NCBI GenBank assembly: GCA_001630475.1
Contig: KV419420.1
Location: 124,001 to 188,000 of the forward strand
Source: Sistotremastrum niveocremeum HHB9708
Lineage: Eukaryota > Basidiomycota > Agaricomycetes > Sistotremastrales > Sistotremastraceae
Reading direction: 5' to 3'
Length of the DNA stretch: 64,000 nt
Part shown: positions 10,683 through 38,668 of the stretch, one piece after another
Layout: each line of letters opens with the position of its first letter
Numbering within the stretch: the stretch's first letter is position 1
Program-made: the position numbers and the translations under genes
The notes under the pieces: generated by a model
The model's input: only the letters and a program-made list of their open reading frames with translations
Told to the model about the DNA's origin: nothing
Database searches by the model: none

Positions 10683-11438
10683 CACTGCGGGCGGCTGCCA
10701 TTTTCAAGGGGCTGGAAATCGACGGAAAACTGTATTTAGATATTTGAAATGATCGATACACTTTCCATCTCCGACAAATAAAATTGAAACCCGAGGTGAT
10801 CCGGTCCGAAAAACTGATTTACATACTCAATATATCCTTCAAGTATCTCGGCCCCGGAAAGCCAAAGGCATCCGGTCCTGGGAATTCGGCTGAAAGCCGA
10901 ACTATTCATCGTCTGATCCAGCCCGACAAACCCGGGATCATCACCAAATTTCCAGCCTCCGGAAAATCACGAGACACTCAAAATCATCATCAAGTTTTCC
11001 AGCCACAGAAACACGAACTATCCTCCAAATTTCCACCCTCTCGAAATCTCACGAAAACTCAGAATTCCCACCATCTCTACCGGCCCTGGAAAATCAGTGA
11101 TCACTCAAAATTTCCGGCAAGATTTCCCGCCACCGCAAATCCGCCAGAAAGTTCAAGTTTCCAAGCCTCGACTACTCAAAATTCCACGGTCCAAGAAAAC
11201 TCGGGAGAAACCCAAAGTTTCCAAGGCCCGAAAATCCATCCTGCGACGGTCCCGTCCCCGGAGCGTGACCAGCCTCTGACGATCCCACTATGGTCGGCAG
11301 ACCGGCACGTCTTCGGTCCTGCGCCGAGGCAAAATGTCACGTGTCACACAAGAAAATCGTAAGGCGAAGAGAAATCACGCAAGCATAGATTGTACATATT
11401 GGATTACAGCTGCGACGAGTTGGTTAGCGCCGTATACA
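10683..11438 (+). repeat. Left terminal inverted repeat with subterminal motif array
   Basis: Matches 37913-38668 in inverse orientation up to the point where cgtataca diverges. From about 10900 to 11240 it holds a loose array of TTTCC(A/G)(G/C)CC and CTCAAAAT motifs spaced about 50-60 bp. Such subterminal repeats bind transposase in plant CACTA elements. A 192-codon open frame (10784-11362) runs through the array; its repeated KFPxS and TQN units reflect the DNA repeats, so I do not call it a gene. Confidence 0.85.
11197..11220. promoter_or_regulatory. Core hairpin in left TIR
   Basis: Arms AAACTCGGG / CCCAAAGTTT around loop AGAAA. The same hairpin occurs inverted in the right repeat at 38131-38154. 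Confidence 0.6.
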
Positions 11439-11550
11439 GATAAAAACAAGTACCAGCTACTCACAATTTCTAAGTGTACAACAAGGACGGAAATTGTCTA
11501 AGTTCGAGCGTCAAAATGGGAACTGACGAGCAATGATGGCACTTACACGC

Positions 11551-13982
11551 TCAAGTCAACAGCGAGCGAGAAAGTTGAAGCCACCGATCGTAGACACCTC
11601 GGTCTAGATTTCGGAAATTTTTGCTGGAGCGACATTTATTACGCCAACGAGTGGAGCTCAAAGGCTCAGGACTCTGTTCCAAGGAAGCAATGTGACTCTG
11701 GAACCATTGCTCGTTATCGTCCTGCCAAACTCCTTCCATATGGCCTTCCAAGTGTCGCAAAGGTGGCCAGTACGACATGACAGACTTCGGCTGGCCTGGA
11801 GAGGCTTCGACCTCGCACAGACCAATGAGCAGCTCAATCTCGTCTCTACGGAGACGAGGCTCAACACTAATAGCCTTATCGTAGACAACGATCGACAGGG
11901 CAACCTCCAAAGTCAAGACGTCAAAAGCGATGCGAGAGAGAAGTCCACCATGCATCAGACAAGCCCGCCCGCGAGCACGAATAAACTCTTCTCGTGTTTT
12001 CAAGTAGCTTTCGTACTCTGGCCGGCCGAATGTGTGTCCAGGAGGGTATGAGGGAGGTTGATAACGAGGAGAGGGGATGTGAGGAGCAAGCTTTGGAGGT
12101 ATGCTATACTGTATATTGAAAGAGACCCTGAGCTCGATGGCAGCACGCACAAGCTCATGCATGTCATGATGATGGAGACGCTCGAGCACCAAAGCGGCAG
12201 AAGCTTCATGAACGAACAGAACATATGTTGACTCCATAGGAAGGGCGAACATGTAACCCTGCCCGCTCACCCGTGCGGCAGACACAAGATATACGCCGTG
12301 AAGAGAGAAGCAGTCATGAGCAGGATATTCTGCAAGGAAAGAAAGTATCTGGTCGCCCATCGCGGGTCGAGGATGATTGGGCAAGAGACCGAGTTGCGTC
12401 ATCGCCACACGCCATTCTTGTGATTCCGCTGTCTGAGGTGTTGGCGGGAGGAACCCAGCCAACTCCGTTGACGGCAGTGACTCCTGCATGGGGATAGACG
12501 AGACGTTGATAAGCGGTGCTGTTGGGGTGATGACGATGGGAACTGATGACGGAGTCACGAGCGTGCTGGATGCGAATGTGGGCGAGTCAGACGACTCTGA
12601 AGACGAATGCTTCACTGCAACGACGGGAGAGGAGACCGATTCTTCGAGAAGTTTGAGAGGTTGAGGAGCGATGATAGGAAGTGATGGAACCATCGCAGGA
12701 TTAGAAGGACTCGAACCAGAGGAATCCACATCCATCGAGTCGTTAGTGATGATGGACGCAAGGAGAGGTAGAGCTGTAGATTGCTCAAGCTGCTGTAGCG
12801 GCTCAGAAGTCGAAGACGACAACCCCACTGGAGCCATATGGGAAATCGAGAGTGAAGGAGGAGGTAAGAGAGATACTTGTGATAGAATTGGCGGTGGAGA
12901 GCTCGGAGGAGTCACAGGAGCAACGACAGGCTGTGTGGGAGGAGGGGGGAGGGGAGGGTCGAGATCGTAAGGGTTGAAGTCATCTTCTTCGTCGAGTTCC
13001 ATCGTCGCGTTGCTGCGCGTGTATTCGTAGGCAGGATTAGTGAGAGGGACCTTATGAATCACGCGACCACAATCCCACTCTCGACGCAGTGTATTGAATA
13101 GCTGGTCCGCCTCTTTGTAAAAGGAGGCAGTGCCCACTGCCCTCCTATTAGTGAGCTCGACGCGGATCAGGAAATCTGGGTTGAGATCACTGGGTTCCCA
13201 CTCATAGTACCTGCACTTCGCTCCCTTTTCCTTCGCTCTGGGGGGAGATTTCGCCATATTGATGCGCTTCTGCCGATCCTCGGGTGTCTCTTGCGAGAGT
13301 TTGACACGGTCTTCCGCCTCCCGTCGTTCAAAAAATTGCTGCCATGTCTCTGCCGTATTCTGAGAGCGATGTTGCTCTGGATCCCTCTCGGCAAACGGAG
13401 GGGGAGAGGGGCCGCGCTCTGGAGTCGATAATCCATTACGAGCTGACAATGATCACCATGAGACGAAGCTCAAAACATTAAAACAGAAGGAAGGTACTCA
13501 CGCAGGACAGACGTCGGAGGCTGTTGCTTGAACATTTCCTCCCATGATGGAGGAGGCGAATCGTCGATCCCCCATCCAGATGGCTCTGGCTGACTCAAAT
13601 TGGCCCCCCACGAATTGGGCAACTCCCACGAACTACTAGCTCCCCAACCTTGATTTTCTTCGGCTTTGGAGGGAGGACGATCACCGGATGACGAAGGACC
13701 ATTCGTCGAAGGGAGAAACCCTTTCGACGAACCTGTCCAGTTGGTCCGGGCACGCCGGTGGCCTCCTATTTCGAATCCAGGGAGTGTCTGCGAGACAACA
13801 CTCCCAGAGTTTTCATTAACTAGGTAGAACGTTTGTCAATTAATCTACGACTTGTAAGTGATCATACCTGTGAAACGCCCAGTCTGAATAGGGGCGTCGC
13901 GACCTCCACGCCAACCGCGACCTCCACGACCACCTCCACGACCACGATTGGCGTGACCAGGATATGCCTCATAGGAAGTCAT
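11551..13982 (-). CDS. Unrecognised cargo protein with N-terminal RGG box (CACTA gene 1)
   Basis: The ATG at 13982 gives MTSYEAYPGHANRGRGGGRG and continues Arg/Gly-rich, a typical RGG box of RNA- or DNA-binding proteins. Two introns (about 13823-13868 and 13450-13505) join it to a long exon ending at 11551, for a total of about 770 residues. The middle is charged, then long Pro/Ser-rich disordered stretches follow. The C-terminal third is more globular, with repeated Arg/Leu-rich helices and SRSLL at the end. I recognise no known domain. It is the first gene inside the left TIR and is read toward that end. Two core hairpins fall in its exons (12440 and 13702) and one lies 136 bp upstream (14118). 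CACTA elements of plants encode a second DNA-binding protein (TNPA), and this could be a counterpart, but that is inference. Confidence 0.65.
12440..12463. promoter_or_regulatory. Core hairpin (coding part of gene 1)
   Basis: Arms GTTGGCGGG / CCCAGCCAAC around AGGAA, one bulged base. It lies in frame in the Pro-rich part of gene 1. Confidence 0.6.
13702..13731. promoter_or_regulatory. Core hairpin (exon 2 of gene 1)
   Basis: Arms TTCGTCGAAGGG / CCCTTTCGACGAA around AGAAA, 12 pairs with one bulge. Confidence 0.65.
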
Positions 13983-14117
13983 GATTCTAAAGGTAAAGGA
14001 AAAGTCAGCAATAGGATAGGGTAATTTTTCGGATGGGTCGATACGTACGAGGGGATTTTAACTGAGTGATTTCGCAGAACGAGCTATCAGACGACGATCA
14101 GCAGCCATGCATATCAT

Positions 14118-14147
14118 CGCTTCACGGGAGGAACCCACGTTGAAGCG
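14118..14147. promoter_or_regulatory. Core hairpin upstream of gene 1
   Basis: Arms CGCTTCACGGG / CCCACGTTGAAGCG around AGGAA. It is 136 bp upstream of the gene 1 start codon; on the gene's coding strand the core reads GGGTTCCTCCC. Confidence 0.65.
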
Positions 14148-14413: not shown

Positions 14414-15630
14414 CTAATTGTCAACTAAAGTTACAGTATTTTCGTCCATGAAAGTGGCCGCGTTCTCCATCATTTCTCCGAGTTGATCGAGGATTCGATT
14501 ATAGTGAGGGATAACTCGGTTCGCAGCAGGCACAGTGGAAGGATTTAGAGGAGGGGGAAGAGCGGGTGTCACAGAGCGTGGCCTGACTGTTGTCCTCGGC
14601 GAAGAAAAGACACCCATGTGGTCTCTAGCGCTTAGCAGGCGAGCACTAAGGAGAGCATGCTCAGGATCGGGTCCTAGTAGACCCTGGCGAAGACGTCGCT
14701 GCTGGATGCGCGCACTGCGCCGGACGTATCTGACGCCACTTGGTGGAACAGGGATGCCAGCTTTGCCACGAGGTCGCAGCCAAATTTTGTCGCTCAGCGT
14801 GGAGAATTTACTGAGCATGATGATTAGAGCGATCTCAAACGACTTTGAAAGTGACTTACGCTGTTTCTGCTCTCAGAGTCCCAACAGTTTTCTCTGCAAT
14901 GGAATCGGATTGTCTGACCGATAGCTTGCAAAGAGCGCCTTTATAGAGACTCCAACTATCATCGAAGCCCATGTTGATCATAGCGATGAGGTCAGGACGA
15001 TGGCTGAAATCTCCTCGAACGAATGGGAGTAGTATATCGACGCCGCCGTGGCCGATGAAGAAGCAGACGGCTAAGACTTTACACTGCGGGTCGTAGTCCC
15101 GAATATCGAGGAGGTTCTGAATAATGAGGTTTGTGACGAATGTGGAGATGGAGTCATTGGGGTTGGCAGGAAGAGTCTGGTGGATGCGAACGACGTCGGT
15201 GACGCGGCGAAACGCAGAGATCTCGGGATTAGTGGGTAGATCCCAGAGAACGACTTTCGAGAGGTCGTGAGGAGGATCGCTTCGATAGACTTTCCGCCAG
15301 AAAGGATCGATAGGGGGGGACGATGATGGCCAGCATGACCGTGCAGGTATGGAGCGGTTGTCCTAAACGAGTTTGTGTTAAGACTCGTTAATGAGTTAAG
15401 GCGCAAGAGACACGTACAAAAAGAAGTCCTCGTAGATCTTCCGAAACTCGATCATGACTGTAATGACAGAGGGAGTTCAAAGTTTCGACAATCCGGGCTT
15501 GATTGCTTGTGAAGCAGCGGTAAGCAGTATCCGACGAGGGTAGATAGCCCTTATGGGAGACTCTGAGGAAGAGTCCACGATAGGGGATTGGGGGAGCACC
15601 AGATCTGGGAGTGTCGACGTTGAAAGGCAT
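14414..15630 (-). CDS. Unrecognised cargo protein (CACTA gene 2)
   Basis: Three exons. Exon 1 starts at the ATG at 15630 (MPFNVDTPRSGAPPIPYRGL); an in-frame ATG at 15672 is an alternative. The first intron has donor gtacgt near 15420. Exon 2 holds a well-formed globular sequence including FWRKVYRSDPPHDLSKVVLW, then FVTNLIIQNLLDIRDYDP and VCFFIGHGGVDILLPF. The second intron (gtaagt near 14860, cag near 14817) leads to exon 3, which is Arg-rich (YVRRSARIQQRRLRQG) and ends at 14414. About 360 residues. No known domain is recognised. It sits in divergent orientation to gene 3, with two core hairpins between them. Confidence 0.6.
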
Positions 15631-16088
15631 GACGAGAGTGTGTAGAAGAGGATGTAGGGAATGGAGGTACAATGAATAAAGAGAGCAATGGGGCGCACAG
15701 CGCTGCGATGAAAAAGTTCTTGGGGAGGTGAGACGATCGCTCGACGATTTTATACAGCTTGCATTCCCAATTCTTCACCACTTTCGGAACCATTTCACCT
15801 TCAGTATGGATCGTTTTCGGCCGCACAATAATAGTAATATGCTGCCGTGATCTCATAAAACAGCTGGCCGCGGGCGCGGATCGACGGATGGCGCGAATAG
15901 CTCCAGCGAACAATAAAGCGCGATTAGGCGCCCATGCGCTCTGACCACAAAATTGATCCGAGCTCAGATAGCGACAATAGAGGAAGGTGAGGACAGCGCA
16001 ACAATAGACGAAATGTCAGGAAAACGCAGGTGTTCGGTCAGGGTCAGGACGAGCGCGATCGCTCGACTTGCGGGATGAAACAACAGAC

Positions 16089-16114
16089 GTCGTTCGGGAG
16101 AAACCCGTAACGAC
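16089..16114. promoter_or_regulatory. Core hairpin between genes 2 and 3
   Basis: Arms GTCGTTCGGG / CCCGTAACGAC around AGAAA, one bulge. It lies 459 bp upstream of the gene 2 start codon. Confidence 0.68.
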
Positions 16115-16440
16115 AGATTGAACAAAAAAGAAACAATAATTCTTTTTGTTAGAGATAGCCACAACAATTGAGGAAGGGTCAGAACAGAGTGCCTTGGTGA
16201 TCATAACGAAATCAGGACCGTCGCGGCCTAGCCACTTGCAGACCTATTGCCACAACGACGCAAGGAGAGAAATCCATAGCGATAGGACAGACAATGAACG
16301 GACAATGAGTGTTGCTTTCTTGACAGGCTGCACCAATCAGACAGAAAGTCGAGAATGGAGCGATCCTAACTTTGGGGGGAGAAAAGAAAGATCCGTCGGG
16401 AGAGCAATTTTGAACTCATCACGAGGAATGGCGGCATGAC

Positions 16441-16467
16441 ATCGTTCGGGAGAAACCCGTTAACGAT
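16441..16467. promoter_or_regulatory. Core hairpin upstream of gene 3
   Basis: Arms ATCGTTCGGG / CCCGTTAACGAT around AGAAA. It is about 220 bp upstream of the gene 3 start but in the orientation that matches gene 2. Its inner arms resemble those of the 16089 copy. Confidence 0.66.
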
Positions 16468-16685
16468 ATTGCGTACAATAAATTGTCGTGCTGGCAATGA
16501 GATCGATAATTAAGTGCCGTGAAGACCGGAATGATCAAGGACAGTCGTAGCAATGAAGGGAAGGGTTTCGACATCTTCTGCGTTCAGAACAAGATCAGGT
16601 CTCTTCAAGGATATATATCGAGATAGGAAGGACATACCTGCACCACCCAGAACGAAACTTATCGAATCCAAAACTTATCGAATCC

Positions 16686-17481: not shown

Positions 17482-17664
17482 TGAAGACTGACGACAGAGC
17501 TGGTTTCTGTCATATATACCCATGCCTGTACTTGTTTCGGTCGTATACATTCAACTAGTCTTGTCCAATGTTTTGCGTCAACAGCCAAGTCTTCTGGAGT
17601 GACCAAGTAAGACTTGCGATGGGCCAAATAATGCGCAAACACGCTAATGGTTCCTGATCATGAC

Positions 17665-18173
17665 TAGTGTTCCAAGGTCCAGTTGCCGTGACCGGTGGCA
17701 ACCGGCAGTCGCGACCGGACCGTGACCGGACTGCAGTTGCCGGTTGCCTAGGTTCTTGGAAAATCAGGCAACCGGCAACCGCAGTCATGACCGGTCGTGA
17801 CCGTGGTCGCAACCGAGGACCCTTAAGGGTCCCCAACCAGGGTACCCAGAGGGTATTTTGGGTCCCAAATGGGCATTTATGGTGACATATCTGGTATATA
17901 TTGGTCTCTATATGCATGTACAACATCATATGAGGTGTATATACAGTATATATAATATAATAATGATTAAAATATTGACATAAGACCAGTTGTGACTGGA
18001 AAAAGTGGCCATGACCGGTCACGCAACCGGTCGCAGCCGTGACCGGTCGCCGGACCGCAACTGCAGTCGCAGTCGCCAGTCACGCAAAATTTTGGACGGC
18101 AACCGGACCGGCAGTTGCCAGTCGCACCCTCCAGGGGTCAAAAGTCCAGTCGTGACTGGACCTCAGAACACTA
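17665..18173. mobile_element. hAT-type MITE, copy 1 (509 bp)
   Basis: Ends TAGTGTTCCAAGGTCCAGT and its inverse complement with two changes (...ACTGGACCTCAGAACACTA). It is flanked by a perfect 8-bp duplication ATCATGAC (17657-17664 and 18174-18181). An 8-bp duplication and a YARNG-like end (TAGTG) fit the hAT superfamily. The interior is rich in ACCGGTC palindromes with an AT-rich centre and has no coding capacity. It is the same length as, and closely similar to, the copy at 28144. Confidence 0.85.
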
Positions 18174-18425: not shown

Positions 18426-19362
18426 TCAAGGAGAGGGGGGACCCTCGGATCGAGTACGGTAAGCCCGGACTAGGATAGGAGGGGGCGTCAAGAGTGGGTG
18501 CAGTAGGTGATAAGGGTTGTCAGTGATCATCTGATCCGCGTCATACGACTGTGGCACAGGGGCATCTTGAGGAGGATTGTAGTCTATCTTCAAGGTGCAC
18601 TCGAAGAATTGGCGGAGGAAGATTGTTGTCAATGGCGGATTGAGACCCCCTGTGGGGAACCTTGTGACACAGGCCGAGAGAGAAAGATTGCACGAGGACT
18701 CACCTTCAGGCTTCGGCATGTACATCATCGCAAAATTCAACCAAATGTTCACCATATCCTCTAAGGCGGCAGCCATCCTTTGAAATGTTCTTTGCAAATG
18801 CTCTTCAGTTTCTGGCGAATGTTTGGAGTAATTGCTGATCAGGCATCGGGATAGAACTGACATGAAATGAACTCGATGGGAAGGAGCATGTATTTACGGG
18901 CACTCACTCGAAAGATCAAGACAGTCCTTGGCTATGTACGAATATGCCGGAATGTGAGAGAGGTGCTTCGTGGAGTCAGTCGCCACGAATGGGTTCTCGT
19001 CGTCGATAGCTCCAAGCGTTCCTAGACGAGTAATTGCTTCAAGTATGGCAGGCTGGGAGCTCGGGACCACATCGAGTTGTGGAACTCGTTGCCGCAAGAA
19101 TTCCGCCCACAATTGCGTTACATCGTTGTTCAAGGCATCGTGATGCCCCATGAAATCAGCCACATCCTTATGCTCTTTGTCTTCGGCCTTGCAGTAATTG
19201 TCAATGAGACGAAGGAGGAGGGCTGAGGAATCACTAATAAGAAGTAAAATCACAATGGTCATGTAATTGCTGACCTCCAAGGTGATAGACATCTGGAGCT
19301 ACATATGAGAAAGCTGGATGATCGTGGGCCTTGATAATGTAGTTGAGAGGGAACATAGGCAT
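18426..19362 (-). CDS. Unrecognised cargo protein (CACTA gene 4)
   Basis: The start is taken at the ATG at 19362 (MPMFPLNYIIKAHDHPAFSY), with a TATAAATT box about 85 bp upstream. The first intron runs from gtcagc after HLG to cctcag, continuing ALLLRLIDNYCKAEDKEHKD. The second intron follows KDCLDLS near 18905. The remainder includes FQRMAAALEDMVNIWLNFAM. The last part may contain one more intron after MPKPEG (donor gtgagt) or be read straight through, ending RAYRTRSEGPPSP at 18426. About 270-290 residues, mostly helical, no known domain. One core hairpin lies 204 bp upstream of the start. Confidence 0.58.
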
Positions 19363-19565
19363 GGATAATCGAAGGCGACAAATGCGATGATGCAGGGAGA
19401 CAAGAAAAGAGTGGAGAGAGGCTGAACACCGAGCCAAAGACAATTTATAGGCAAGAAAAACGCCCTCCGAAACGCTTGTGGCTTTGGACAAATTGATGAC
19501 ATCGTCGGGAGGGAGTCGAAAGTCTCAGCATCAGCTCAGAATCATAGAAGAGACTCAACACAGCA

Positions 19566-19587
19566 TCTGCGGGAGAAACCCGTCAGA
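19566..19587. promoter_or_regulatory. Core hairpin upstream of gene 4
   Basis: Arms TCTGCGGG / CCCGTCAGA around AGAAA; 204 bp upstream of the gene 4 start. Confidence 0.65.
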
Positions 19588-19884
19588 GACTGGAGGTAGA
19601 AACGACTGAGGACGAGACGAGTGTGCGCTGCGGGCGTTGGGCGCTGGGGTATTTTGAAAGTCCGATTTCGCTCACTGATCCGTATTCAATTAGGCCTACT
19701 CAATTCATCGCTGAACATATTCAAGATGGGTATACTGGAGACGTAGAGGACAAAGACGAATATCAATAGAGTCCTTGTGTAGTTCAATCGCAAAGCCCTA
19801 ATATACATGTCCAAAGTGCTTTAACTAAATATTTGAAGCTCTGCTACCTAGGCAAGGGCAGTGCAACTCCGCGGCTCGCAGCTA

Positions 19885-21621
19885 TCAAAGCTGGTTCCGA
19901 TGGACGTTGTCACAAGTGGGAGGGCCAAATACTATGTGAGATATCCAGAGATGTAGCATACAGTTAATGACCAGGCACCCAACCCTCAGACTGGAGGCTT
20001 CGGTCGCGTGGTTGAAGAACTTGAAGATTTGAGCTGTAAAATAGCAAAGACTGAAAAGCCACAGAGCTTCCAAGCATACGAGTCGAACTCGGCGAAGGGC
20101 TAAAATGGCACTGACAATTTGGGCTGCTGCACTAGATCCGCTGTTGCTTGAAGGAAGCTCCACAGTGGCTACCGCTTCAGTCGTGGCGGATATACCGATG
20201 CGATTGGGTTCAGACTTGTGACGCGAGGAAACAATGTCAAACTCCGGATAATAAGAAATATGAAGCAATACTTACGGCGACGTGTGAGGTTATTTCAGGG
20301 CAACCAGCGCCAGCATTCTGGACGAAATAGGTGCTTGAGTGAAGATCCCGATCGTCAAGAATTCTTTGGATGAACGTACGTGGAATCGAACAAAGGCGGT
20401 GATGGTTTTGCCAGCGCTAACGATGACGTGCCGATCTGGGTACGAAAAAGCCGCTAAGCAATCCGCTGGCCAATGCGAATGAGCGAGAATTTGGTTCGTT
20501 TGGCCAGACTTGGCATCAAAGATGTGGATGTGACCTCCTTGGCACGTCGCGAGAATTATATCGCCTTTCTCAGCAAAGATGACATAGTTGGGTGGATCAT
20601 ATCGGCCTCGGGGAATGTCGTAAGTTCGTAGGAGCTTCAGCTCTGGAAATGAGTAATGACTAAAGCCTGATCGAGGTGCGCAATGACTGAAAAGCATAGT
20701 GCCTCCAACCCGATCGAGACTGCACATGTACCTGAATAGGGATTGGAAATGTATACGGATGACGAGACAGGGATCACACGCACGTTCGATCAACAGTGGT
20801 CTCTTTGTCCGTCTCGACCTCACCGGTAGCCAAAGAAAGTGAATGTCTACAATGCGTCAGTAGAGGAAGGAAAATGGATAAGCATACTAACACGGTTCCC
20901 GTAAACATGCAAACCACGCGGAGCATTGCCTGCTCGCCATCAAACGCTAGGCTGCGAATTGGATCGTGGGATCCGCCAGTGAAACCGGGCACTCTAGTCT
21001 TCCATTTCGGGATGACCACATCTGACTATAATATAAGATCTATGTCCTGTCCGCGAACCGAGAAGCGCATACCTTCGTCCAAGGAGACCGTATAAACCAC
21101 GACATCACCAACTGCAGTGGCTGCAGCGAGCTGCCCCGAAACTGCGTCATAAGCCATAGCATCGACAGAACCGTCCATATTCACATCCCATCGGTGCTCA
21201 AACTCGTTCTGACAGACTTTGATTAAGCAACAGCGATAAACTCAAGATGGATACTCACCCGCACATTGTCCTTTTGATGATACAAGGACAATAGACCGGA
21301 CTCGGTTCCGAGGGCGAATGTTCGTCTGTCGCCATTGCCGTTTGAGAGCCATTGAAAACAATATATCAAGTTCCAGTCTTCGTGAGAGAGAACCTGAAAG
21401 ACGTTCAGATGCGGCATTTCGAAGATGATGATGCGCCCGTCGTCCACTAAGAGGTAATGTTAGACAAATTCACGAGTAACGTTGGATAGATGTCATGAAG
21501 ACCGACAAGACGAACCTGTAACGCCAAGGAAGAGACCGTCAGAGTCAAAAGAAAGGCGGAAACAGCCTTGTACACGATCACGCAAGGGAAAGGTCCATAT
21601 CTTGGAGTAGTTCACGTCCAT
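19885..21621 (-). CDS. WD40-like beta-propeller protein with hydrophobic tail, copy 1 (CACTA gene 5)
   Basis: The ATG at 21621 starts MDVNYSKIWTFPLRDRVQGC. Exons run through the propeller: DDGRIIIFEMPHLNVFQVLS, then FQWLSNG and FALGTESGLLSLY. The next blocks are VDAMAYDAVSGQLAAATAVG and IRSLAFDGEQAMLRVVCMFT. The penultimate blade reads IILATCQGGHIHIFDAKSGQ and AAFSYPDRHVIVSAGKTITA. After two short introns comes a tail of about 100 residues with two hydrophobic stretches (near ALWLFSLCYFTAQIF and LRVGCLVINCMLHLWISHIV), likely membrane-associated. It is paralogous to the proteins at 23521-25120 and 31046-32736 across the whole propeller. It is divergent from the WP-motif copy 2. The role is unknown; WD40 proteins usually serve as interaction platforms. 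Confidence 0.72.
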
Positions 21622-21809
21622 GATTGGTTGATATTGATTGGTTGATGCTTGACTCTCTAGCACGGGCAGACTTGAAGCTGGAGCACGGTTTAGTGAATTT
21701 CAGAGCTTATGTAGACCACTTACTCGTCGTCTTGGTGCTCACAGCCTTGTACTCCGTTGCCTCGTCTCATCGTCTCGGTCGATAACGACTCGCCCTGCTG
21801 TACGGCGCC

Positions 21810-21830: not shown

Positions 21831-21855
21831 AAACGATGGGAAGAACAATGAAAAC

Positions 21856-21875
21856 CCTGGGAGAAACCCATGGGA
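21856..21875. promoter_or_regulatory. Core hairpin upstream of WD40 copy 1
   Basis: Arms CCCTGGG / CCCATGGG around AGAAA; 235 bp upstream of the start codon. Confidence 0.65.
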
Positions 21876-21907
21876 TCTCTTATTGTGACGCTCTCGAGGG
21901 GTAGCGG

Positions 21908-21932
21908 TCTCCCTGGAAATACCAAGTGGAGA
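21908..21932. promoter_or_regulatory. Core hairpin variant (CTGG/CCAAGT type)
   Basis: Arms TCTCCCTGG / CCAAGTGGAGA around AAATA. The two-base asymmetry is shared with the hairpins at 23215 and 25931, suggesting a subfamily. Confidence 0.6.
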
Positions 21933-23120: not shown

Positions 23121-23214
23121 AAGCGATGATCAGAAGATGTCGATAGATATTTTAACATGACAAGTTATTCGCCAGGCGTTTGTATGGTATCGAATGCGAT
23201 CCGACGTGATTGAA

Positions 23215-26114: not shown

Positions 26115-26123
26115 TGGCGGCTT

Positions 26124-26154
26124 GTTCTTCTGATTGGTTCCTCCAAAGGAGAAC
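26124..26154. promoter_or_regulatory. Core hairpin upstream of transposase, second of a tandem pair
   Basis: Arms GTTCTTCTGATTGG / CCAAAGGAGAAC around TTCCT, less perfect than its neighbour. The two form a tandem duplicate of about 36 bp. Confidence 0.5.
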
Positions 26155-29300: not shown

Positions 29301-30587
29301 CTTCAGATGCGAACGACGCCTCAGATCCTGTGGAGGAAGAAGAGTCCGGTCCTCCCCAAGTCGATGAAGCTGTCGAAGTCATTCCCGGCAGAGCCCCGCC
29401 GAAGACTCCCGTACTCGATAAATTTGAGCTGGCGGAGATATGGCGTGATCTGAAGAGAGTAATCAAACCATCATGGGTCGCCGCTCTTCCCTCTGATCTG
29501 GGCCAGCCGCGTCATGGGAAGCTCAAATCTGATCAATGGCGTACTGCCGCGACTATATTTCTGCCTGTCACACTCATTCGACGCTGGGGCAAGTTGGGCG
29601 ACTCGGTGGAGGAAACGCGAAAGAAAGCGATGCTCGATAATACCATGCACCTCATCAACGCGATCATCATTGCGACGGCCGACAAAACTTCACGCAAGCA
29701 CGCCGAACGGTATACTTTCCATATCCAAAAATATCTAGAAGGATATCAGACACTGTACCCTGGACGATTATTACTTCCGTCCCACCATGCTGCCCTACAT
29801 TTGGGCGAGTTCTTGACTCAGTTTGGACCTGTCCGTGCTTGGTGGACGTTTCCCTTCGAACGTCTCATTGGATCGCTTCAAAACATGCACACCAATGAGA
29901 AACTAGGTATTGTTTCTGTCTCTATCTTCGACTTCGTTATTGACTCAAACCCTTCCAGGTGAATTGGAGGGAACCATGACATCTACATTCATCATGTCGT
30001 CCAATATGCGCAATATTCTTTCAAACCCTCGCATTCCTCCTGTTCTTCAGCATTGTCGGAGAATGTTCGACACCATGATCAATCGAAGTCATAGAAATAC
30101 CATGTTAACGGAGATTCTGAATGACGTCGATAACCATTCGGACGGCGTCTCGGCGACTCTTGACCTTGACACGGCCAAGGCGCTCCTCGGCGACACAGTG
30201 AACAACTCGAGGCTTCCTCGCGTTCTGACGTTCCGGCGCGTTGAGAAGAGTACTCGTGTTTTTACAACTTCGCGTGCCAATGCAGGGGATAGTCTGGTCT
30301 GGGTCCCTGGTGCTGGAAGAGGATCACCCGCTTCTATCTGCGAGATCTTCACGCAGGTTGATGATGCAGCTCAGGAGACTTACGTTTCCTTCAAACGTTA
30401 TTTGCCAGCTCATGCATCGCAAACGCAGAAATATGCTTACGAGGAATATCCCATATTTGGCGCTGAAGTTTGGTCGTCGGAACTATCCAGCTCTCTGGAG
30501 GTTCTTCCACTGCGTAAAATAATTTCACACTGCGCATGTACTCCCTTAGACGATGGTTCATCTGTATTCGTGCCTCTATTTCGATAA
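26323..30587 (+). CDS. Tnp2-type CACTA transposase, split by a MITE (CACTA gene 8)
   Basis: The catalytic protein of the element; the family cuts and rejoins the element ends in the nucleus. Exon 1 starts MPPRKRTVRWRRCFCVKAGC at 26323 with a helical N-terminus. A 51-bp intron (27005-27058) is followed by a Cys/His cluster (CPGCHTL, then CAARKH) and the family core: FSMCFDSFNPNHNMISGKSI, LNLPPQIRYKTENMYLAGIV, PGPSEPALNALNHYLTPLID. After the MITE (28144-28652) it resumes with TVIDPMHTLFLNLVQNHFRF. Later exons carry FGPVRAWWTFPFERLIGSLQ, typical of fungal Tnp2 proteins, and end at 30587 (SSVFVPLFR). Removing the MITE and one duplication restores an unbroken frame; with it in place a TAG follows at once, so this copy is inactive. 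Introns at about 29157-29213 and 29907-29958. Confidence 0.85.
28144..28652. mobile_element. hAT-type MITE, copy 2, inserted in the transposase gene (509 bp)
   Basis: Ends TAGTGTTCCAAGGTCCAGT / ACTGGACCTCGGAACACTA, flanked by a perfect 8-bp duplication TTCAAAAC (28136-28143 and 28653-28660). It is the same length as copy 1 and nearly identical, so both inserted recently. It interrupts the transposase between its two conserved halves. Confidence 0.88.
29252..29274. promoter_or_regulatory. Possible core hairpin in transposase exon
   Basis: Arms CCAGCGGTGG / CCCCCTGG around TTCCT with two bulges; weaker than the others. Confidence 0.4.
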
Positions 30588-30790
30588 TATAGCTCCTCAT
30601 AGATCTCCGAATGTGCTTTCATTGCGAACGACATCGCTCAGTGACCGTGACGTCACAACCCCAACGAATTCGTCAGTTCTCCAGCGCGCGACGGCCCAAG
30701 CTAGAAACCGACCATCATCGATCATGGTCATCGCTCGGATCACCAGGAAGGTCGTGATCAATAGCTTGTTGCCAGAGACTCTTTTTGTGA

Positions 30791-30812
30791 TACATCGGGT
30801 CTCTCCCATGTA
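30791..30812. promoter_or_regulatory. Core hairpin upstream of WD40 copy 3
   Basis: Arms TACATCGGG / CCCATGTA around TCTCT. It is 234 bp upstream of the ATG, the same distance as for WD40 copy 1, with the core in coding orientation. Confidence 0.65.
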
Positions 30813-30906
30813 GCACCTTATTGTCTGACTGTGCGATGGCGCACAATAAGCTCGTCCTGCCCAAAAACCCAATTCAACGCGTTTGACCGTACCATCACCC
30901 TCCTCC

Positions 30907-31045: not shown

Positions 31046-32736
31046 ATGAATTACGCACTCGCGAAGCGACTTACTGGGCACTCTGCCACCGTCAACTGTT
31101 TTGCATTCGATTCTCAAGGCCAGCTTATGGCTAGCGGTGGTGGGTCTATATATTCACTTACAAAATTCATGTCGGCTGATGTCAACCCAGGCGATGATCA
31201 ACGGGTAATCATCTGGTCTATGGATAAGCTCGTCAAATTCCAAGAAATATCCAATGATTCTTGGGGTCAAATAACATGCCTTCAGTGGCTCGGAGAAGAG
31301 TCTTCGGCGTCCAAGACCCTTTGTTTTGGATGCGGGAGGGGACTGATCCATCTGTATCACCAGACTGTCCCAGGGGTACGATCTCAACCTCGATTCTATG
31401 TTCATCATTTTCACCGTCCTTTCAGGAGAAGTTCACGGAACGATGCACTATCCCTTACCAGGCGCGGACAAGCATCGAGGCCATGGCTTACGATACTCAG
31501 GGCAGACGGTTGGTGGTCGCAACAGCACATGGAGACATTGGCCTATGGCTGGTTCCCAAGGGAGGAGGTACTCATCATTCTCTGTCCTTGCATCCTCGAT
31601 TGCTCACTCGCCTTCAGGTGCCCCATCCCAGTCATGGAATGCGTCGCTGTTCGGCACCGACGCAGTGGTGCGTGGCCTAGTCTTCGATGAGGATCAGTCA
31701 TCAGTGGATGTGTTCTGTACGGAAACGGGAACCATGTACGTCACTCTCGATTGTCCTTCTTCATCAACTAATGTTGATCACAGCCACACATTCGATATCG
31801 AGACTGGTACTCAATCATCGACGCCATACCGAATTGCTGAAAGTCGAATGTACGTCTCTCGTTCTGTCGTTAAGCCATCATTAACTGAGTATCAGTGGGA
31901 GCATCTGTCATGCACCGACGAAGCGTTACGTCCTCATCGACAACTTAGGCGATGGTTGTTCGATGTATCACTACACCAAGACGAAATTGGAGTTGGTTCG
32001 CTCTTTCGATGTAATCAGGAAGGGCAAACTCTTTCCCTTCAAAGCTGTCTTCGCCGAATCTGCCACTTTAGCCGTTTCCGGCAGTGACCATGGAAAGGTG
32101 TACATCTTCGACGCCACCACGTCCCGCCTGACTCAAGTCCTTTGCCACGGAAAGGCTTCGGTGCAGACTGTCGGTTCTTTCTCGTACTCTGATCAGCATC
32201 TCATTGTGAGCGGAGAGAATGGATCGAACGCCACCATATGCGTCTATAAGCGTTCACTGGTAAGCTCATGTGTCAAATGCGTCGACAAGTTCTCTCATAT
32301 CGTGTTCTCAGTCGCGTACGCCTGCACAGTTACAAACACTCCTGCTCATGATCATCACTGCAGTGATATCGGGGTTTGTGTTGCTTATCTTGCTTTCAAC
32401 AATTGATATCCCTGGCCCGGTCGAAAAGGTATGTCGGATTCCCTTTTGTCATTATCATGCCTTGATGCTTACTCTGGTTAGACTTGGAATGCCATGCCCT
32501 CCTTTTCCTCTCTAACCAGTTTTCGCTCGATGGCCACGGTTCAGGTTCCTCACGTCAGCGAATCGCCTGGGTCAACCGTTCCCACTTTGGATGCTGGCCC
32601 AAAATTCGTCGATAACCTAGAAAGTCTCGATGCTCTGGACGATATTGATGGAGCTGACGACCTTGACGACCTTGACGACATTGACGATCTCGATACAATT
32701 AATCAAGGCTCACAACCTCTTTGCCTTGTCCCATAA
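31046..32736 (+). CDS. WD40-like beta-propeller protein with TM segment and acidic tail, copy 3 (CACTA gene 9)
   Basis: The ATG at 31046 starts MNYALAKRLTGHSATVNCFA. Propeller blocks: DDQRVIIWSMDKLVKFQEIS, SWGQITCLQWLGEES, FGCGRGLIHLYHQ, IEAMAYDTQGRRLVVATAHG, VRGLVFDEDQSSVDVFCTET, LAVSGSDHGKVYIFDATTSR and VGSFSYSDQHLIVSGEN. One transmembrane segment follows (LQTLLLMIITAVISGFVLLI). An intron near 32429-32481 then gives a soluble tail ending in an Asp/Leu repeat (DDLDDLDDIDDLD) and a TAA at 32734-32736. Short introns separate most blocks. It appears intact. The TM segment and acidic tail make it look like a membrane-anchored adaptor, but the role is unknown. Confidence 0.74.
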
Positions 32737-33094
32737 GTCTGCTATATTTCTCTTACTATGGACTTTATATACCAAATGTTATATCTACACTTCTATATCA
32801 CTTCTATCTCGTATGCCATATTTTGTTTCAAATACAATCAGCCACACTTGGATTGGTATCCATAAATATATGTTGTTTTCATGCAATCACTTGTGTGTAG
32901 AAATGCCTTGAGATCGTGTCGTACCATCCTCGCCGGCTTGTTCTCCTCGCGTCGTCAACACGACACGCTAACAACAACAACAACAAACACACGCCTGGTC
33001 CTGTCCTCGTTGATCGTCGATTGACCAAGACGCTAAACGATCACAGCTCACTTCCGATCCTTTCCATCTCCAACGGAGGTTCAACTGTCGAACA

Positions 33095-33115
33095 CTGCTT
33101 GGGTTTCTCCCGCAG
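33095..33115. promoter_or_regulatory. Core hairpin upstream of gene 10
   Basis: Arms CTGCTTGGG / CCCGCAG around TTTCT, in coding orientation about 300 bp upstream of the ATG at 33418. Confidence 0.63.
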
Positions 33116-33878
33116 AAATCGAAGTTGTGCCTTCTGTGTCTCAGCTCGCGCCCGCAACGATGGCGAAAATGCCAGCCTAGTGATTGTCTTATTGTCCATA
33201 GCTCAAACCTGCTGGCGATCCTCGCAACCGGAACAAGATTCGCGTGTTGACTCTTGTCCCGCGCCCATGGCAATCGCATAGAATCGAAGGCTTGGTGACT
33301 AGTCTAATTGTTGTTGAGAACAATAATGAGGAATGGTATGTAACGCCGAAGTCTCTCTGCCTCTCTATCAAAATCTTTCTCTAACACTGTCTCTTACACC
33401 AGCATATTACAATCAAAATGTCCAACTCCAACAACCAGAACCCGTCGGTCAATCATCCTCTGGCAGGAAATGCGCAAGAGCCGCTGGTCGGATCTTCTCA
33501 TCAGGACATCGGTGCTCAACACGATGAACCACAGAGTCATGCTCACCCTAAGGTATGCACATATATCCTCTCGTTGTCGTGTTCTGACCACTCTTCAGGG
33601 AGTTCTTCTGACCCGAGCCAGCGTCAAGCATGCTGCAGGCGATCAGCGGAAACGAGGGGCAACGTTGTTCTCAAACATTCGAGCTGGTGGTACCCGTGCT
33701 TTGCAGCGAATTCATGGCTATACGTCGGGTGCCACGGATCCTCCGGGAGCGGCGACCCTTCGAGACCTTCGAGAGTTCGTCGAACGACTCAGCGGCGAAT
33801 CTCAACCCACTAATCCTCCTGACCCTCCACTCGTTAACCCCCCCGAAGAGCTGGCCTCCCCCGTCAATCGAGACATCC

Positions 33879-33901
33879 CGCCTCGTGGTTTCTCCCAGGC
33901 G
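33879..33901. promoter_or_regulatory. Core hairpin in coding part of gene 10
   Basis: Arms CGCCTCGTGG / CCCAGGCG around TTTCT; it lies within the Pro-rich exon. Confidence 0.55.
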
Positions 33902-35763
33902 TCGTCTCCGACCACCAATCCCCATCACCTCCCCGTACAAACACAAGCTACTTCGCAGCATGTGGATGACGGCTCCGCTTTGGCAGCAGGTCTCAATGAA
34001 GAACACATGACATCCGCTTCTGCTCAACAAGTCGAACCGACACGTGCTCCAGTGGATGTCCATGCATTCGGTGCAGTCGGCGCACCCACTGCGAGCCTCA
34101 TAAGCCCACAGTCACACGGCTCTCGCAATCCGACTTCTCCTCATTCTGAGGCCAATCCTCATCTGCAATCTCTCATAGCCCCTCTCCCTGTCGAGACTCA
34201 ATCATCTCGACCTCACGAGAATGAGCCATCGCCCCTTTTTCGTAATTTCACTCCCGTCGACTCCAATCCTCATCTTCAATCTCTCATAGCCCCTCTCGCC
34301 GTTCATACTCAAACCCCTCAAGTCATTGAGACGGAGCCAACTCGCCCTCTTCACGAGTCCACTCCCATCGAGTCCAACCCTCAACAATCTCTAATAACCC
34401 CTCTCCCTGCTGAAGCCCATTCGTCTCGATCTCTTGAGATTGAGTCAGTTCGCCTTTCTCGCGATTCCATTTCTAGCGGTGAATCCAGTTCACATACCCG
34501 ATCTCCTACCCCTCCTTTGCATGCCGAGACTCAACCTATGGAGGTCGAGCATGTCCCTCCTGAACCGCAGTCTATCAATGCTGAGCAATCCTTGTCCATC
34601 CCGACAAGTGAGCCTACATCAGCTACCCCCTTTTCTGCTCAGGAACCCTCTCTACCCGCAGTAGACGTCGTCACACCTCCTATCCAGCCTGCGTCTTCAC
34701 TCGGGCTGAGCCATCTCGATCGCACAAATCCGCACGAAGCTATTCCCCAAGCTCATGGCCTCGCTTCTCCTCTCATGCACGAGACCCAGATGCCACCTCA
34801 GATTGTGACTACGGACGTCGTCGACCCTAATGTTCCTCGTGCAGAGGCCATCGTTCCAGTCAACGTGAACTCGATGTCGACTGACACTAACGCAGTTTCC
34901 CTCATCCACGAAGCCCCATCCGCCTCGAGGAATTCTCATTCCGACATCCATGATTCACCTAGGATAATGCCGGGAGCCATATCAGAAGAGGACGATAACG
35001 AGCACGATGACAGTGATGTAGAAGAAGAGATGGATACGGGAGCGGATCCCCAGAATGTCACGACCTTGGTATGTGAGCCAGACACCGATGAACCGATGAA
35101 TCCACCCGATGCCTCATCTGGGTCTGCTCCCGATGACGGTGTCGCTCTTCATCTTTCGGTTGCGTTTGCCCAGGAACCAGCCTCATCTGGGTTGTCTCCC
35201 GATGACGGTATGGGTCTGCCTGGCTCCGCCTCGTCTGCGCCACCGGTTTCGGATTCAAATCAGGTCACGGATGCTACTTCATCCTCCCCGCCGAAGACAA
35301 AGGTACTTCATTACCATAACTTCTAACTCTTCTCTAACATATCTTAGAGCATTCACCCAAACCCGCTCGTCAATGCCATCCCCGAGCATACTCCTTATGA
35401 TCCTGTTCGGCCTCCGCAGACCTTTTCCCATCCTCGAGCAGGGGGTGGGACGAACCCTGCCCGTCCTATGTTTCTTGTGAGTCGGAACATTCTGTTTGTA
35501 ACATGGTCTATGTCCTCATGCACTGCCGTTAGACTCAAGATGTTGCTATGAATTCAGCGTCTGCACCATCACCCGCCGACGTTCACTCGTCCCCACAGTC
35601 TACCACCCCGCATGCCCACACATCTTCTACTGCCGAACAACCTACTTCTGCGACACCCACGCCTGCTCCCTCGAGCACGATGGGCATTGATTCCGATATT
35701 CAGAAGGAATCTCAATTCACTCAGATCCAGAGGCAGATGAACAAGATCGAGGCTACTCAAGAT

Positions 35764-36113
35764 TAAGGTTTAACACGAGTCCATACTTGCCATACCTGGG
35801 TACCTGTGGCAGGTACCTCCCTGCTTTTTTTAGGGCCTGAGCTCATACTTGCCTCCAAAAAANNNNNNNNNNNNNNNNNNNNNNNNNNNNNNNNNNNNNN
35901 NNNNNNNNNNNNNNNNNNNNNNNNNNNNNNNNNNNNNNNNNNNNNNNNNNNNNNNNNNNNNNNNNNNNNNNNNNNNNNNNNNNNNNNNNNNNNNNNNNNN
36001 NNNNNNNNNNNNNNNNNTTGATACTTGGTACTTGCCCCTTGCTTAGTAAGCAGGTACCTTGCCAGGTATACCTGCGGGTACCTGTTTTTTGCCTGGACTC
36101 GTGTTAAACCTTA
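35764..36113. mobile_element. hAT-type MITE rich in GGTACC, with assembly gap
   Basis: Perfect 19-bp terminal inverted repeats TAAGGTTTAACACGAGTCC, flanked by a perfect 8-bp duplication CTCAAGAT (35756-35763 and 36114-36121). The interior repeats CAGGTACCTG-type palindromes. It shares interior motifs with the element at 37026. It interrupts gene 10. Confidence 0.85.
35863..36017. other. Assembly gap (N run, 155 bases)
   Basis: Unread bases inside the GGTACC-rich MITE. Confidence 0.98.
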
Positions 36114-36271
36114 CTCAAGATGCTGTTGTCGTACTTCTGAGCGACCAACCGAAGCGGCGAAGGCGTGATCGTGTTCAGAAAGAACAGGACGCGGGTGGTC
36201 GGGATAGTGATGCCGACTCGCCGAACGAGCTGGGTCAGGTTCCTAGAGGCATCTATAAGAAGCTGAAACGA

Positions 36272-36369
36272 CATCAGAAAAAATTAGAGCTCCTATTTCA
36301 ACTCTGGAGTACTCTAGAGTACTCAAAAAGACTCCAGAGTTGAAATAGGAGCTCTAATTTTTCCTGATG
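36272..36369. repeat. Long near-perfect palindrome (39-nt arms) inside gene 10
   Basis: The left arm 36272-36310 and right arm 36331-36369 are inverse complements with one mismatch. A 20-nt spacer lies between, holding a smaller palindrome ACTCTAGAGT. The arms contain TTAGAGCTCCTATTTCAAC. The outer bases CATCAG / CTGATG also pair, so no direct duplication is seen at the edges. Probably a tiny foldback element; it closes the gene 10 frame. Confidence 0.75.
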
Positions 36370-37025
36370 GAGGGGGTCCCCGCGGAGCTCTCTTGGTGAA
36401 ATATCAGGAGGTAGTCCGTACACGAATGGCGCAGGGACTCGGCATCATACACAAGAAATCTATCCCCCTTGCAGCTCACGTCTGGGATCTCGAAGCCGAG
36501 ATAATGCCCAATGATCCCGTTATCCATAAGTTCACTGCGGGTCAGAGGTTCAAACTAGATTGGCGTAAGACCATCAAGGAGAGCAAGTTCAACCAGTCAG
36601 TCTGTGATCGCTTTTGCGAAAACATTCTACAGGAAATCACAACGGGAAATGTCGGGGCCATCTCTAAAAACCTTGCGCTCAAGAACCTTATTGCCGTCGT
36701 CGACGTCTTCAAGCGCAGGTACGATCAATGGCGAACTGAGCATGCTCATTGGATCCGCACTATCAAGGAGCCTGAGCTCGACATCGACAACCTGGAGCAT
36801 CTTCAGAAGATTTCCTTGACTCATGACCTAGCAAGAGCAAAGCGGAAAGCAATTCTAACACGTAAGAACCAACGCAAAGTCAAGGTTCGTCTTCTTCCTC
36901 TATCATCTCGTCGTTTTCTCAAATTCGCACAGCTCTGCGCGCATCGCAAACAAATCCTCGAGTCTTTGATCGAACAGAAAACTCCGGAGGAGAATTCATA
37001 TCGGTGGCTTCTGAGTGTCGTAGAG

Positions 37026-37324
37026 TAAGGATAGCAACGAGTATATACTCGTGGACTCAGGTACCTGTGCACAGGTACCTGCAGTTTTTTTTCAGGCCGT
37101 GGACTCGTATCTGCCTCTGATTTTGGGCCAAAATGCTGGACTCGTACTCAGGTACCCGCGAGTCCCTCTGCCAAAAAACACAGGTACCTGCCCACGGGTA
37201 CCTGTATTTTCAAAAAATTTCCCAGAGCGGGCTGTATCTGGACTCGTGTTTGCTTAGTAAGCAGGTACCTGTACTTGAGTACCCACGAGTACCTGTATTT
37301 TTGCGGTATTCGTTGCTATCCCTA
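37026..37324. mobile_element. hAT-type MITE rich in GGTACC, second copy (299 bp)
   Basis: Ends TAAGGATAGCAACGAGTA and (inverse) TAGGGATAGCAACGAATA, flanked by a perfect 8-bp duplication TCGTAGAG (37018-37025 and 37325-37332). The interior is full of CAGGTACCTG and GGACTCGT motifs as in the 35764 element. It interrupts the C-terminal part of gene 10. Confidence 0.85.
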
Positions 37325-37912
37325 TCGTAGAGGAATTGGGGAATAAAGGCGTGAGCTCGGATGAGAGTGACCGGGACGAGAAAACACATCAGTCTATCTA
37401 CAGAGTCAAGACCTTTCGCTGGCGACACCCCGCTCTTACGGCGTACCTCGACGGAGTGGATGACGACCGACGCTGGACCAATGATGAACGTCAGCGTAAG
37501 CCTGGTGCTGGGTTCCGCGACCGTCGACGCACAGGGAATACCAGCTTGACACCTGCAGTCGGTGGAATGCATTCAGAAATCTACTCTCCAGATTACCTCC
37601 AGCATCTCCCACCCGCCGAAAGAGCGTACTTGGCCCCGAAGTTACCTCGTCCTATGCCGGAATTGCAACCTATTCTTGCGGCCAGACGGGAACTCTGAAA
37701 TGGCCATAAACTGATATATATGTAAGTGCGATGACGCTGTTTTTCTTCGTAACCGACTAACAAGTTTCTTGCAGGTGAATCGTCGCCTAACGTACTCTGT
37801 TATCGTGAGTGAGATCCCTGCGTATCACTCTGGATACCATTCTAATGACTTGTCACAGAGGATTCTGTTCCGTACAATATATTAGCCTTGTGAGTAATAC
37901 TGCTTTTCTATT

Positions 37913-38668
37913 TGTATACGGCGCTAACCAACTCGTCGCAGCTGTAATCCAATATGTACAATCTATGCTTGCGTGATTTCTCTTCGCCTTACGATTTTCT
38001 TGTGTGACACGTGACATTTTGCCTCGGCGCAGGACCGAAGACGTGCCGGTCTGCCGACCATAGTGGGATCGTCAGAGGCTGGTCACGCTCCGGGGACGGG
38101 ACCGTCGCAGGATGGATTTTCGGGCCTTGGAAACTTTGGGTTTCTCCCGAGTTTTCTTGGACCGTGGAATTTTGAGTAGTCGAGGCTTGGAAACTTGAAC
38201 TTTCTGGCGGATTTGCGGTGGCGGGAAATCTTGCCGGAAATTTTGAGTGATCACTGATTTTCCAGGGCCGGTAGAGATGGTGGGAATTCTGAGTTTTCGT
38301 GAGATTTCGAGAGGGTGGAAATTTGGAGGATAGTTCGTGTTTCTGTGGCTGGAAAACTTGATGATGATTTTGAGTGTCTCGTGATTTTCCGGAGGCTGGA
38401 AATTTGGTGATGATCCCGGGTTTGTCGGGCTGGATCAGACGATGAATAGTTCGGCTTTCAGCCGAATTCCCAGGACCGGATGCCTTTGGCTTTCCGGGGC
38501 CGAGATACTTGAAGGATATATTGAGTATGTAAATCAGTTTTTCGGACCGGATCACCTCGGGTTTCAATTTTATTTGTCGGAGATGGAAAGTGTATCGATC
38601 ATTTCAAATATCTAAATACAGTTTTCCGTCGATTTCCAGCCCCTTGAAAATGGCAGCCGCCCGCAGTG
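37913..38668 (-). repeat. Right terminal inverted repeat of the giant CACTA element
   Basis: Inverse complement of 10683-11438. It ends GGCAGCCGCCCGCAGTG, followed by the TCA duplication. It contains the same subterminal array and core hairpin (38131-38154). The 192-codon frame recurs here on the minus strand (38567-37989) with the same translation. Confidence 0.85.

Follow-up and report, generated by a model that had tools for sequence, protein, structure and literature searches.

Covarying hairpins with one core in a giant CACTA-type transposon of Sistotremastrum niveocremeum: candidate RNA stem-loops on the transposon's own messages

Introduction

The question raised by this locus is why some 20 short hairpins with a common core, whose arms differ from copy to copy and pair within each copy, should be found throughout one large transposon. 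The locus is a stretch of 64,000 nucleotides from the basidiomycete Sistotremastrum niveocremeum HHB9708 (GenBank assembly GCA_001630475.1, contig KV419420.1, positions 124,001 to 188,000 of the forward strand), here called the window, in which a CACTA-type DNA transposon of 27,986 bp occupies positions 10683-38668. The original prediction, made from the letters of the window, listed hairpins with one core at 19 places in the transposon and none in the host flanks, held that either structure or inverted copying of the target is what is kept, knew of no described element of this form, and proposed as a check a pattern search of the whole genome, compared with shuffled sequence.

Results

We find 20 hairpins in the transposon, all of which share one core (Table 1). 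The core is present at each of the 19 places listed originally; the list missed one copy, at 17587-17615, and what it gave as a split copy at 25281 is a canonical hairpin that was hit by a miniature inverted-repeat transposable element (MITE). Read on the strand opposite to that of the original prediction, the hairpins are built from a free lower arm, a 5′-side bulge of one to three bases, a short upper stem with GG-CC as its closing pairs, and a pyrimidine loop (UUUCU or UUCCU as RNA). Most copies conform to T-N-N-(C/T)-T in this loop, and hairpin 25938 has TTCT. Extra 5′-side bases are present in 17 of the 18 scored hairpins, the exception being again 25938, which has another fitting register, and most folds have no extra base on the 3′-side. 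Two subfamilies can be recognized, A-CGGG-UUUCU-CCCG and A-CTTGG-UUCCU-CCAG. The N-N′ pair between bulge and core varies too (UG, UA, CG, AU and GC). The original prediction did not include this 5′-side bulge, nor two features described below, the strand rule of the two halves and the excess of hairpins ahead of predicted gene starts.

The claim that the arms differ between copies and pair within a copy withstood comparison with permuted and displaced controls. An arm-blind scan of the window for the core found 30 cores, 22 in the transposon and 8 outside, and arms of at least 4 bp accompany 16 of the 22 inside and none of the 8 outside. The pattern GGGTTTCTCCC with one mismatch has 13 matches in the window versus 1.45 expected from shuffles, and 0 of 100 shuffles reach 13. 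The mean arm is 4.62 bp (21 cores, one copy from the terminal inverted repeats (TIRs) being dropped) versus 2.34 bp when the flanks are swapped between copies, and none of 20,000 such arm-swap permutations reached the observed arm sum. In a gapless alignment of seven hairpins, picked for one common bulge register, 93.5% of the pair cells hold standard pairs versus 41-57% in six controls slid by 1 to 3 columns, and both sides have changed in 8 of the 11 pairs. An alignment of 18 distinct rows, which was fitted to the model and is hence biased to the structure, gives 89.3% versus 45-53% when slid. Hairpins 16097 and 16449 (16088-16115 and 16440-16468) have near-identical arms that differ by one compensatory double change from G-C to A-T.

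Two covariance models were used to follow the hairpins further, model R1 built from the seven aligned hairpins and model R2 from the 19 best matches of model R1. At E ≤ 10, 26 of the 27 model R1 matches in the window are in the transposon, which makes up 44% of the window. Of the ten matches with at least 22 bits, seven are the training hairpins and one is the second, identical TIR copy; the other two, hairpins 16440 and 14118, were not used for training. All 24 window matches of model R2 at E ≤ 5 fall inside the transposon; 22 of these have E < 0.2 and the expected strand, 19 of them being training rows, and the remaining two (17741 and 21266, E 4 to 4.6) are on the opposite strand. The 36 kb of flanks in the window contain no such hairpins. 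In the genome (34.7 Mb in 111 contigs, its genes intron-rich as in basidiomycetes), 25 places with GGGAGRAACCC were listed, 10 in the transposon and 15 outside, and at these 15 the longest arm is 2-3 bp in the same scan and none reaches 4 bp (hairpins with other loops were not sought elsewhere). Within the sequence searched, the confinement to the transposon that had been claimed is thus upheld.

Model R2 gave one match at E ≤ 5 over 179,358 bases of other loci, at 14.8 bits. Model R1 was run over 213,610 bases of other loci and matched 14 places at E ≤ 10; eight of them are the GGGAGAAACCC places used to pick the loci. Two host paralogues that are 76% identical (L001 and L002) obtain 16.3 and 21.9 bits with model R1 from an exact core next to a broken arm, the second score being near the 22.8 bits of hairpin 14118, and a further locus (L050) obtains 19.6 bits with 4-bp outer arms in a 5-against-1 register. 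The exact 15-mer ACTTGGTTCCTCCAG is found in 24 viral contigs, with one match each and a best score of 19.7 bits (model R2), which we took as chance. No Rfam family matches the hairpins at the gathering threshold. At E ≤ 5 there are 12 weak Rfam hits, the best of them on a foldback at 36272 and on the MITEs, and one, SNORD41 (14065-14126, 22.5 bits against a gathering score of 41), touches the edge of a hairpin. The literature searched, which comprised one open-access library, showed no such hairpin element. Both results are consistent with the original statement that no element of this form has been described.

The strand of the hairpins follows the main gene direction of each half of the transposon. 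Left-half hairpins lie without exception on the minus strand and right-half hairpins on the plus strand, with the switch between 25,956 and 26,087, in the divergent region between the gene models WD_L3 and R1; the main modelled genes have the same arrangement, minus to the left and plus to the right, and diverge between 25,120 and 26,323. The position of the hairpins was compared with the predicted starts for 18 hairpins (the 20 minus the two TIR copies) on the transposon without its TIRs and MITEs. Ten of the 18 lie at most 400 nt upstream of one of nine predicted starts, a region that covers 13.8% of the transposon (P = 3.8e-5), and windows of 300 and 500 nt give P = 4.1e-5 and 2.7e-5. The starts of WD_L2 and R4 were set by hand in this leader test, that of WD_L2 being moved from 22159 in the script to the first Met before the part common to its paralogues. 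With these starts, seven of the nine genes are preceded by a hairpin at a distance of 70 to 320 nt, and L1b by one at 467 nt. If the starts of the script are kept instead, 8, 8 and 9 of the 18 hairpins lie within 300, 400 and 500 nt (P = 0.0003, 0.0016 and 0.0011).

The two strands were also compared directly. The total fold energy over 17 sites is −240.6 kcal/mol on the sense strand versus −215.8 kcal/mol on the antisense strand. Counted over arm positions 1 to 7 of 18 hairpins, in a register chosen by Watson-Crick pairs only, the sense strand has 105 Watson-Crick, 8 G-U, 2 A-C and 11 other cells.

One hairpin can be dated relative to an insertion. The hAT-like MITE at this site sits in the hairpin loop, and the site without the MITE and with one copy of GAGAAACC forms a canonical hairpin with a bulged A (25281/25286); the hairpin at 25286 is therefore older than the MITE insertion. 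Further hAT-like MITEs with 8-bp target duplications are found at 17665-18173 and 28144-28652, the latter inside the transposase gene model, and both have many copies in the genome, mostly 92-97% identical.

We take 10683-38668 as the transposon proper because its ends, CACTGCGGG and CCCGCAGTG, are flanked on both sides by TCA (10680-10682 and 38669-38671). It is bounded by TIRs with inverted arms of 765 nt that are 100% identical, and hairpins 11197 and 38131 correspond to each other in the two TIR copies. The open reading frame (ORF) at 26323-28146 contains a Transposase_21 domain (PF02992, 5e-15, 55.7 bits versus a cut-off of 28.6). Members of the CACTA/EnSpm superfamily have TIRs that start with CACT(A/G) and make a 3-bp target-site duplication (TSD). 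The CACTGCGGG ends, the TCA duplication and the Transposase_21 (tnp2) transposase all agree with this superfamily.

A domain search found Transposase_21 at no fewer than 21 places in the genome, that of this transposon included, and the nearest relatives of the R1 gene's transposase (C17, C34 and C57) share about 50% identity with it over 361-376 aa. Besides its own two copies, a search of the genome with the TIR found only a short pair on C22 (205816-206362), a foldback that matches about 180 bases of the outer end of the TIR at 79% identity; it is possibly a non-autonomous relative without the hairpin region. Homologues of a WD40-like gene and of R5 are present on C12, C34, C57, C64 and C105, some of them interrupted by stops, and the genome therefore holds related large elements. 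In the parts of these relatives that were searched (23 kb each of C34 and C57, a few kb each of C12 and C64) model R2 has no match at E ≤ 10, and generic hairpins in the same parts have no visible common core. Nor were there hairpins with the same core and arms of at least 4 bp in stretches of 20-30 kb at the Transposase_21 places of C17, C34, C57, C82, C33 and C35, or in 3-kb loci at the remaining ones. Judged by these relatives, the hairpins seem to belong to the lineage of this transposon.

Eleven genes were modelled in the 28-kb transposon. The long ORF of L1 has no match in Pfam or PDB, and the predicted fold of an L1 fragment (pLDDT 37) was too low in confidence and was left unused. The predicted L1 gene region contains four hairpins: two within the coding sequence, one ahead of the start and one downstream, in the TIR. 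A conserved peptide was rejected as the cause of the core because L1 and R4 read the core in different frames. The viral contig collection contains no relative of R4. WD_L2, WD_L3 and WD_R3 (19986-21622, 23521-25120 and 31046-32736) are three diverged WD40-like paralogues within one transposon, 24-37% identical. Two paralogous small genes, P16 (16686-17481) and P22 (22309-23120), whose proteins are 28% identical, run opposite to the main direction of the left half. At 35800-37320, upstream of and within R5, there are dense CAGGTACC/AGGTACCTG palindromic repeats and a foldback with 49-bp arms (36272-36369), and parts of this region match repeats on C18, C47, C66 and C89.

Table 1. Hairpins, insertion and modelled genes of the transposon, in positions of the window; scores are those of covariance models R1 and R2.
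Feature	Positions	Strand	Remarks
Hairpin in left TIR	11195-11222	−	loop TTTCT; model R1 34.1 bits (training set)
Hairpin in L1 coding region	12438-12465	−	loop TTCCT; model R1 31.7 bits (training set)
Hairpin in predicted L1 exon	13703-13730	−	9-bp arms, loop TTTCT; model R1 36.1 bits (training set)
Hairpin 145 nt upstream of predicted L1 start	14118-14147	−	loop TTCCT; model R1 22.8 bits, outside training set
Hairpin 467 nt upstream of predicted L1b start	16088-16115	−	loop TTTCT; model R1 training set
Hairpin 819 nt upstream of L1b	16440-16468	−	model R1 25.4 bits, outside training set
Hairpin absent from original list	17587-17615	−	8-bp arms, loop TCACT; model R1 14.3 bits, outside training set
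Hairpin 70 nt upstream of predicted gene19 start	19563-19590	−	model R1 training set
Hairpin 238 nt upstream of hand-set WD_L2 start	21851-21878	−	model R1 training set
Hairpin 293 nt upstream of hand-set WD_L2 start	21906-21934	−	loop TATTT; model R2 14.2 bits, outside training set
Hairpin downstream of predicted WD_L3 stop	23213-23241	−	loop TTCCT; model R1 14.9 bits, outside training set
Hairpin split in loop by insert 25295-25862	25277-25294 + 25863-25880	−	canonical without insert and with one target copy
hAT-like MITE, 568 bp, in hairpin loop	25295-25862		8-bp TSD GAGAAACC
Hairpin upstream of WD_L3	25929-25956	−	4-nt loop TTCT; model R2 15.9 bits, outside training set
Hairpin 225 nt upstream of R1 transposase start	26087-26115	+	loop TTCCT; models R1 and R2
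Hairpin 187 nt upstream of R1 transposase start	26124-26153	+	G-U pair in sense arm; fold and model R1
Weak hairpin in R1 transposase coding region	29249-29277	+	model R1 10.9 bits, outside training set
Hairpin 248 nt upstream of WD_R3 start, just past predicted R1 gene stop	30788-30815	+	loop TCTCT; model R1 training set
Hairpin 316 nt upstream of hand-set R4 start	33091-33119	+	model R1 15.8 bits, outside training set
Hairpin in R4 coding region	33876-33904	+	model R1 14.4 bits, outside training set
Two weak tandem candidates in R4 coding repeats	35111-35139, 35180-35208	+	6-nt loops; 35180: model R1 12.4 bits; 35111: model R1 10.3, model R2 18 bits
Hairpin in right TIR, mirror of 11195-11222	38129-38156	+	model R1
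L1 gene (model)	11551-13982	−	about 774 aa, RGG/RG-rich N-terminal stretch; gene finder
L1b gene (model)	14414-15630	−	gene finder
gene19 (model, start uncertain)	18426-19502	−	gene finder
WD_L2 gene (model)	19986-21622	−	paralogue of WD_L3 and WD_R3
WD_L3 gene (model), WD40-like	23521-25120	−	gene finder; relatives elsewhere in genome
R1 transposase gene (model)	26323-30757	+	Transposase_21 domain
WD_R3 gene (model), WD40-like	31046-32736	+	weak WD40 match below cut-off; paralogy
R4 gene (model), low-complexity protein	33418-35766	+	script start 33333, start set by hand
R5 gene (model)	36426-37698	+	gene finder; homologues elsewhere

Discussion

We suggest, with a probability of just under one half (about 0.48), that the mRNAs of the transposon carry these hairpins as sense-strand RNA stem-loops, which would be the shared operator of one RNA-binding protein. 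A lower stem of free sequence that nonetheless pairs, a one-sided bulge and a fixed loop, together with the single strand in each half and the position upstream of predicted starts, are the features expected of a protein-bound RNA operator. If the hairpins are transcribed and fold as RNA, the lower stem would need its pairing alone, and the protein would recognize the 5′-side bulge, the short upper stem with its GG-CC closure and the loop of pyrimidines. As one or two copies are found upstream of most genes of the main direction, a single protein could act on these mRNAs jointly by switching, marking or translating them. With its RGG-rich N-terminus and the four hairpins in its gene region, the transposon's own L1 protein would be the first candidate for the binder; the second would be a host protein with an RNA recognition motif (RRM).

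Several observations weigh against this reading. The gene models come from a simple in-house script and lack the support of homologues for several genes, and the choice of starts affects the P value of the leader test. P16 and P22 have no hairpin in their own sense, and adding their upstream regions to the test gives 11 of 18 (P = 2.6e-5), which raises it as much as those of the main genes do; the enrichment is therefore one upstream of genes in general and alone is no proof of a sense leader. As these two genes run in the opposite direction, "sense of the main genes" and "towards the centre" are not fully separable either. R5 has no hairpin upstream, although a leader hairpin could be missing or hidden there because of a run of N (35863-36017) among the repeats, and 8 of the 18 hairpins lie elsewhere than in the upstream windows, some of them in coding sequence. 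The excess of G-U over A-C cells is weak as a proof of strand (about 0.05, one-sided), and relative to shuffles the sense strand folds better in only 11 of 19 cases (mean z −2.66 versus −2.36). Since the strands barely differ in this respect, the strand call rests on the orientation, the bulge side and the G-U pairs. Finally, the family at large does not need the hairpins, because the examined parts of relatives in the same genome are without them.

Alternatively, a small module (approximately ACTTGG-UUCCU-CCAG or ACGGG-UUUCU-CCCG) could spread by insertions that copy the neighboring bases inverted as the other arm, in which case the pairing would be a by-product. The inner module is near constant and the arms are without common sequence, ACTTGG-loop-CCAG recurs in four copies whose arms are otherwise quite unlike, and the lack of hairpins in the examined parts of relatives may mean that such a module spread within one lineage. 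On the other hand, a mobile module would be expected in host DNA too, where none of the 15 outside cores has 4-bp arms, the flanks have no hairpins and 179 kb of other loci have no convincing one. A single orientation per half is also not what such copying leads one to expect, the inner N-N′ pair covaries as well, and G-U pairs exceed A-C. We regard this explanation as unlikely. That structure or a copying process is kept stands as originally proposed, and between the two we favor the RNA stem-loop because of the 5′-side bulge, the strand rule and the enrichment upstream of predicted starts.

The hairpins could also act at the level of DNA, as palindromes bound by a transposon protein, or as cruciforms or single-strand hairpins in transposition or replication that point from the ends to the centre. 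The orientation fits "towards the centre" as well, the position upstream of genes would suit a promoter site too, and each TIR has one copy. CACTA elements are known for repeated protein-binding sites near their ends, in the form of clustered short subterminal repeats. In this transposon, however, there is one hairpin per TIR, and the rest are distributed along its length with an excess ahead of predicted starts rather than near the ends; double-stranded sites would need neither free arms that covary nor a one-sided bulge. We hold this to be unlikely too, slightly more so than inverted copying. The leader test relies on starts set by hand and fails to distinguish sense leaders, and for this reason we keep the DNA-level reading in view and place the RNA stem-loop no higher than we do. 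It is improbable that the hairpins are substrates for RNA cleavage or for small RNAs, with read-through antisense RNA cut at the loops AGAAA, AGGAA and AGAA, since, although these letters resemble the AGNN loops cut by yeast RNase III and the antisense fold is nearly as good relative to shuffles, the stems are short for an RNase III substrate, most loops have 5 nt, and the bulge side and G-U pairs lean to the sense strand.

Returning to RNA stem-loops as a shared operator, a more specific form would be a post-transcriptional regulon of the transposon's own, in which L1 recognizes the stem-loop on the messages of the transposase, of the three WD40-like genes, of other genes and of L1 itself, and so exerts feedback control on transposition in the manner of an RNA phage operator; we consider this doubtful. 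If the hairpins are RNA operators at all, a DNA transposon would coordinate many genes at the RNA level via one stem-loop. To our knowledge, such control at the RNA level belongs to RNA phages and iron metabolism, and we know of no case in DNA transposons. The natural variants, about 20 in number, already show where the hairpin is free and where it is fixed.

The coat-protein operators of the phages MS2, PP7 and Q-beta and the iron-responsive element consist of a free pairing lower stem, a 5′-side bulge, a short upper stem and a fixed loop; the iron-responsive element has a CAGUGN loop and a bulged C, and is present on several messages. We find the same architecture in the transposon hairpins, with a free pairing lower stem, a 5′-side bulge and a fixed upper stem and loop, but the loop sequence and the length of the upper stem differ from those of the phage operators and the iron-responsive element, and here about 20 copies are found in one DNA transposon. 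The hairpins are not iron-responsive elements, having loops such as UUUCU and UUCCU, and no such element is among the Rfam hits. Stem-loops with a pyrimidine pentaloop are likewise reported as targets of RRM1 of PTB (PMC7192611, PMC11417363), the loop being UCUUU there (PMC11417363), as opposed to UUUCU or UUCCU in the transposon. Enlarged CACTA elements with extra genes have been described from Chondrus crispus, where large En/Spm elements are 16-20 kb with 4-5 ORFs (PMC6431247), as compared with 28 kb and 11 modelled genes here, and the part of that article available to us mentions no such hairpins. An article on Starships and the abundance of transposable elements (PMC13066641) has, in its accessible part, nothing on hairpins. 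In conclusion, an RNA operator is an element of a known kind, and a family of about 20 candidate operators in a giant DNA transposon appears to be new.

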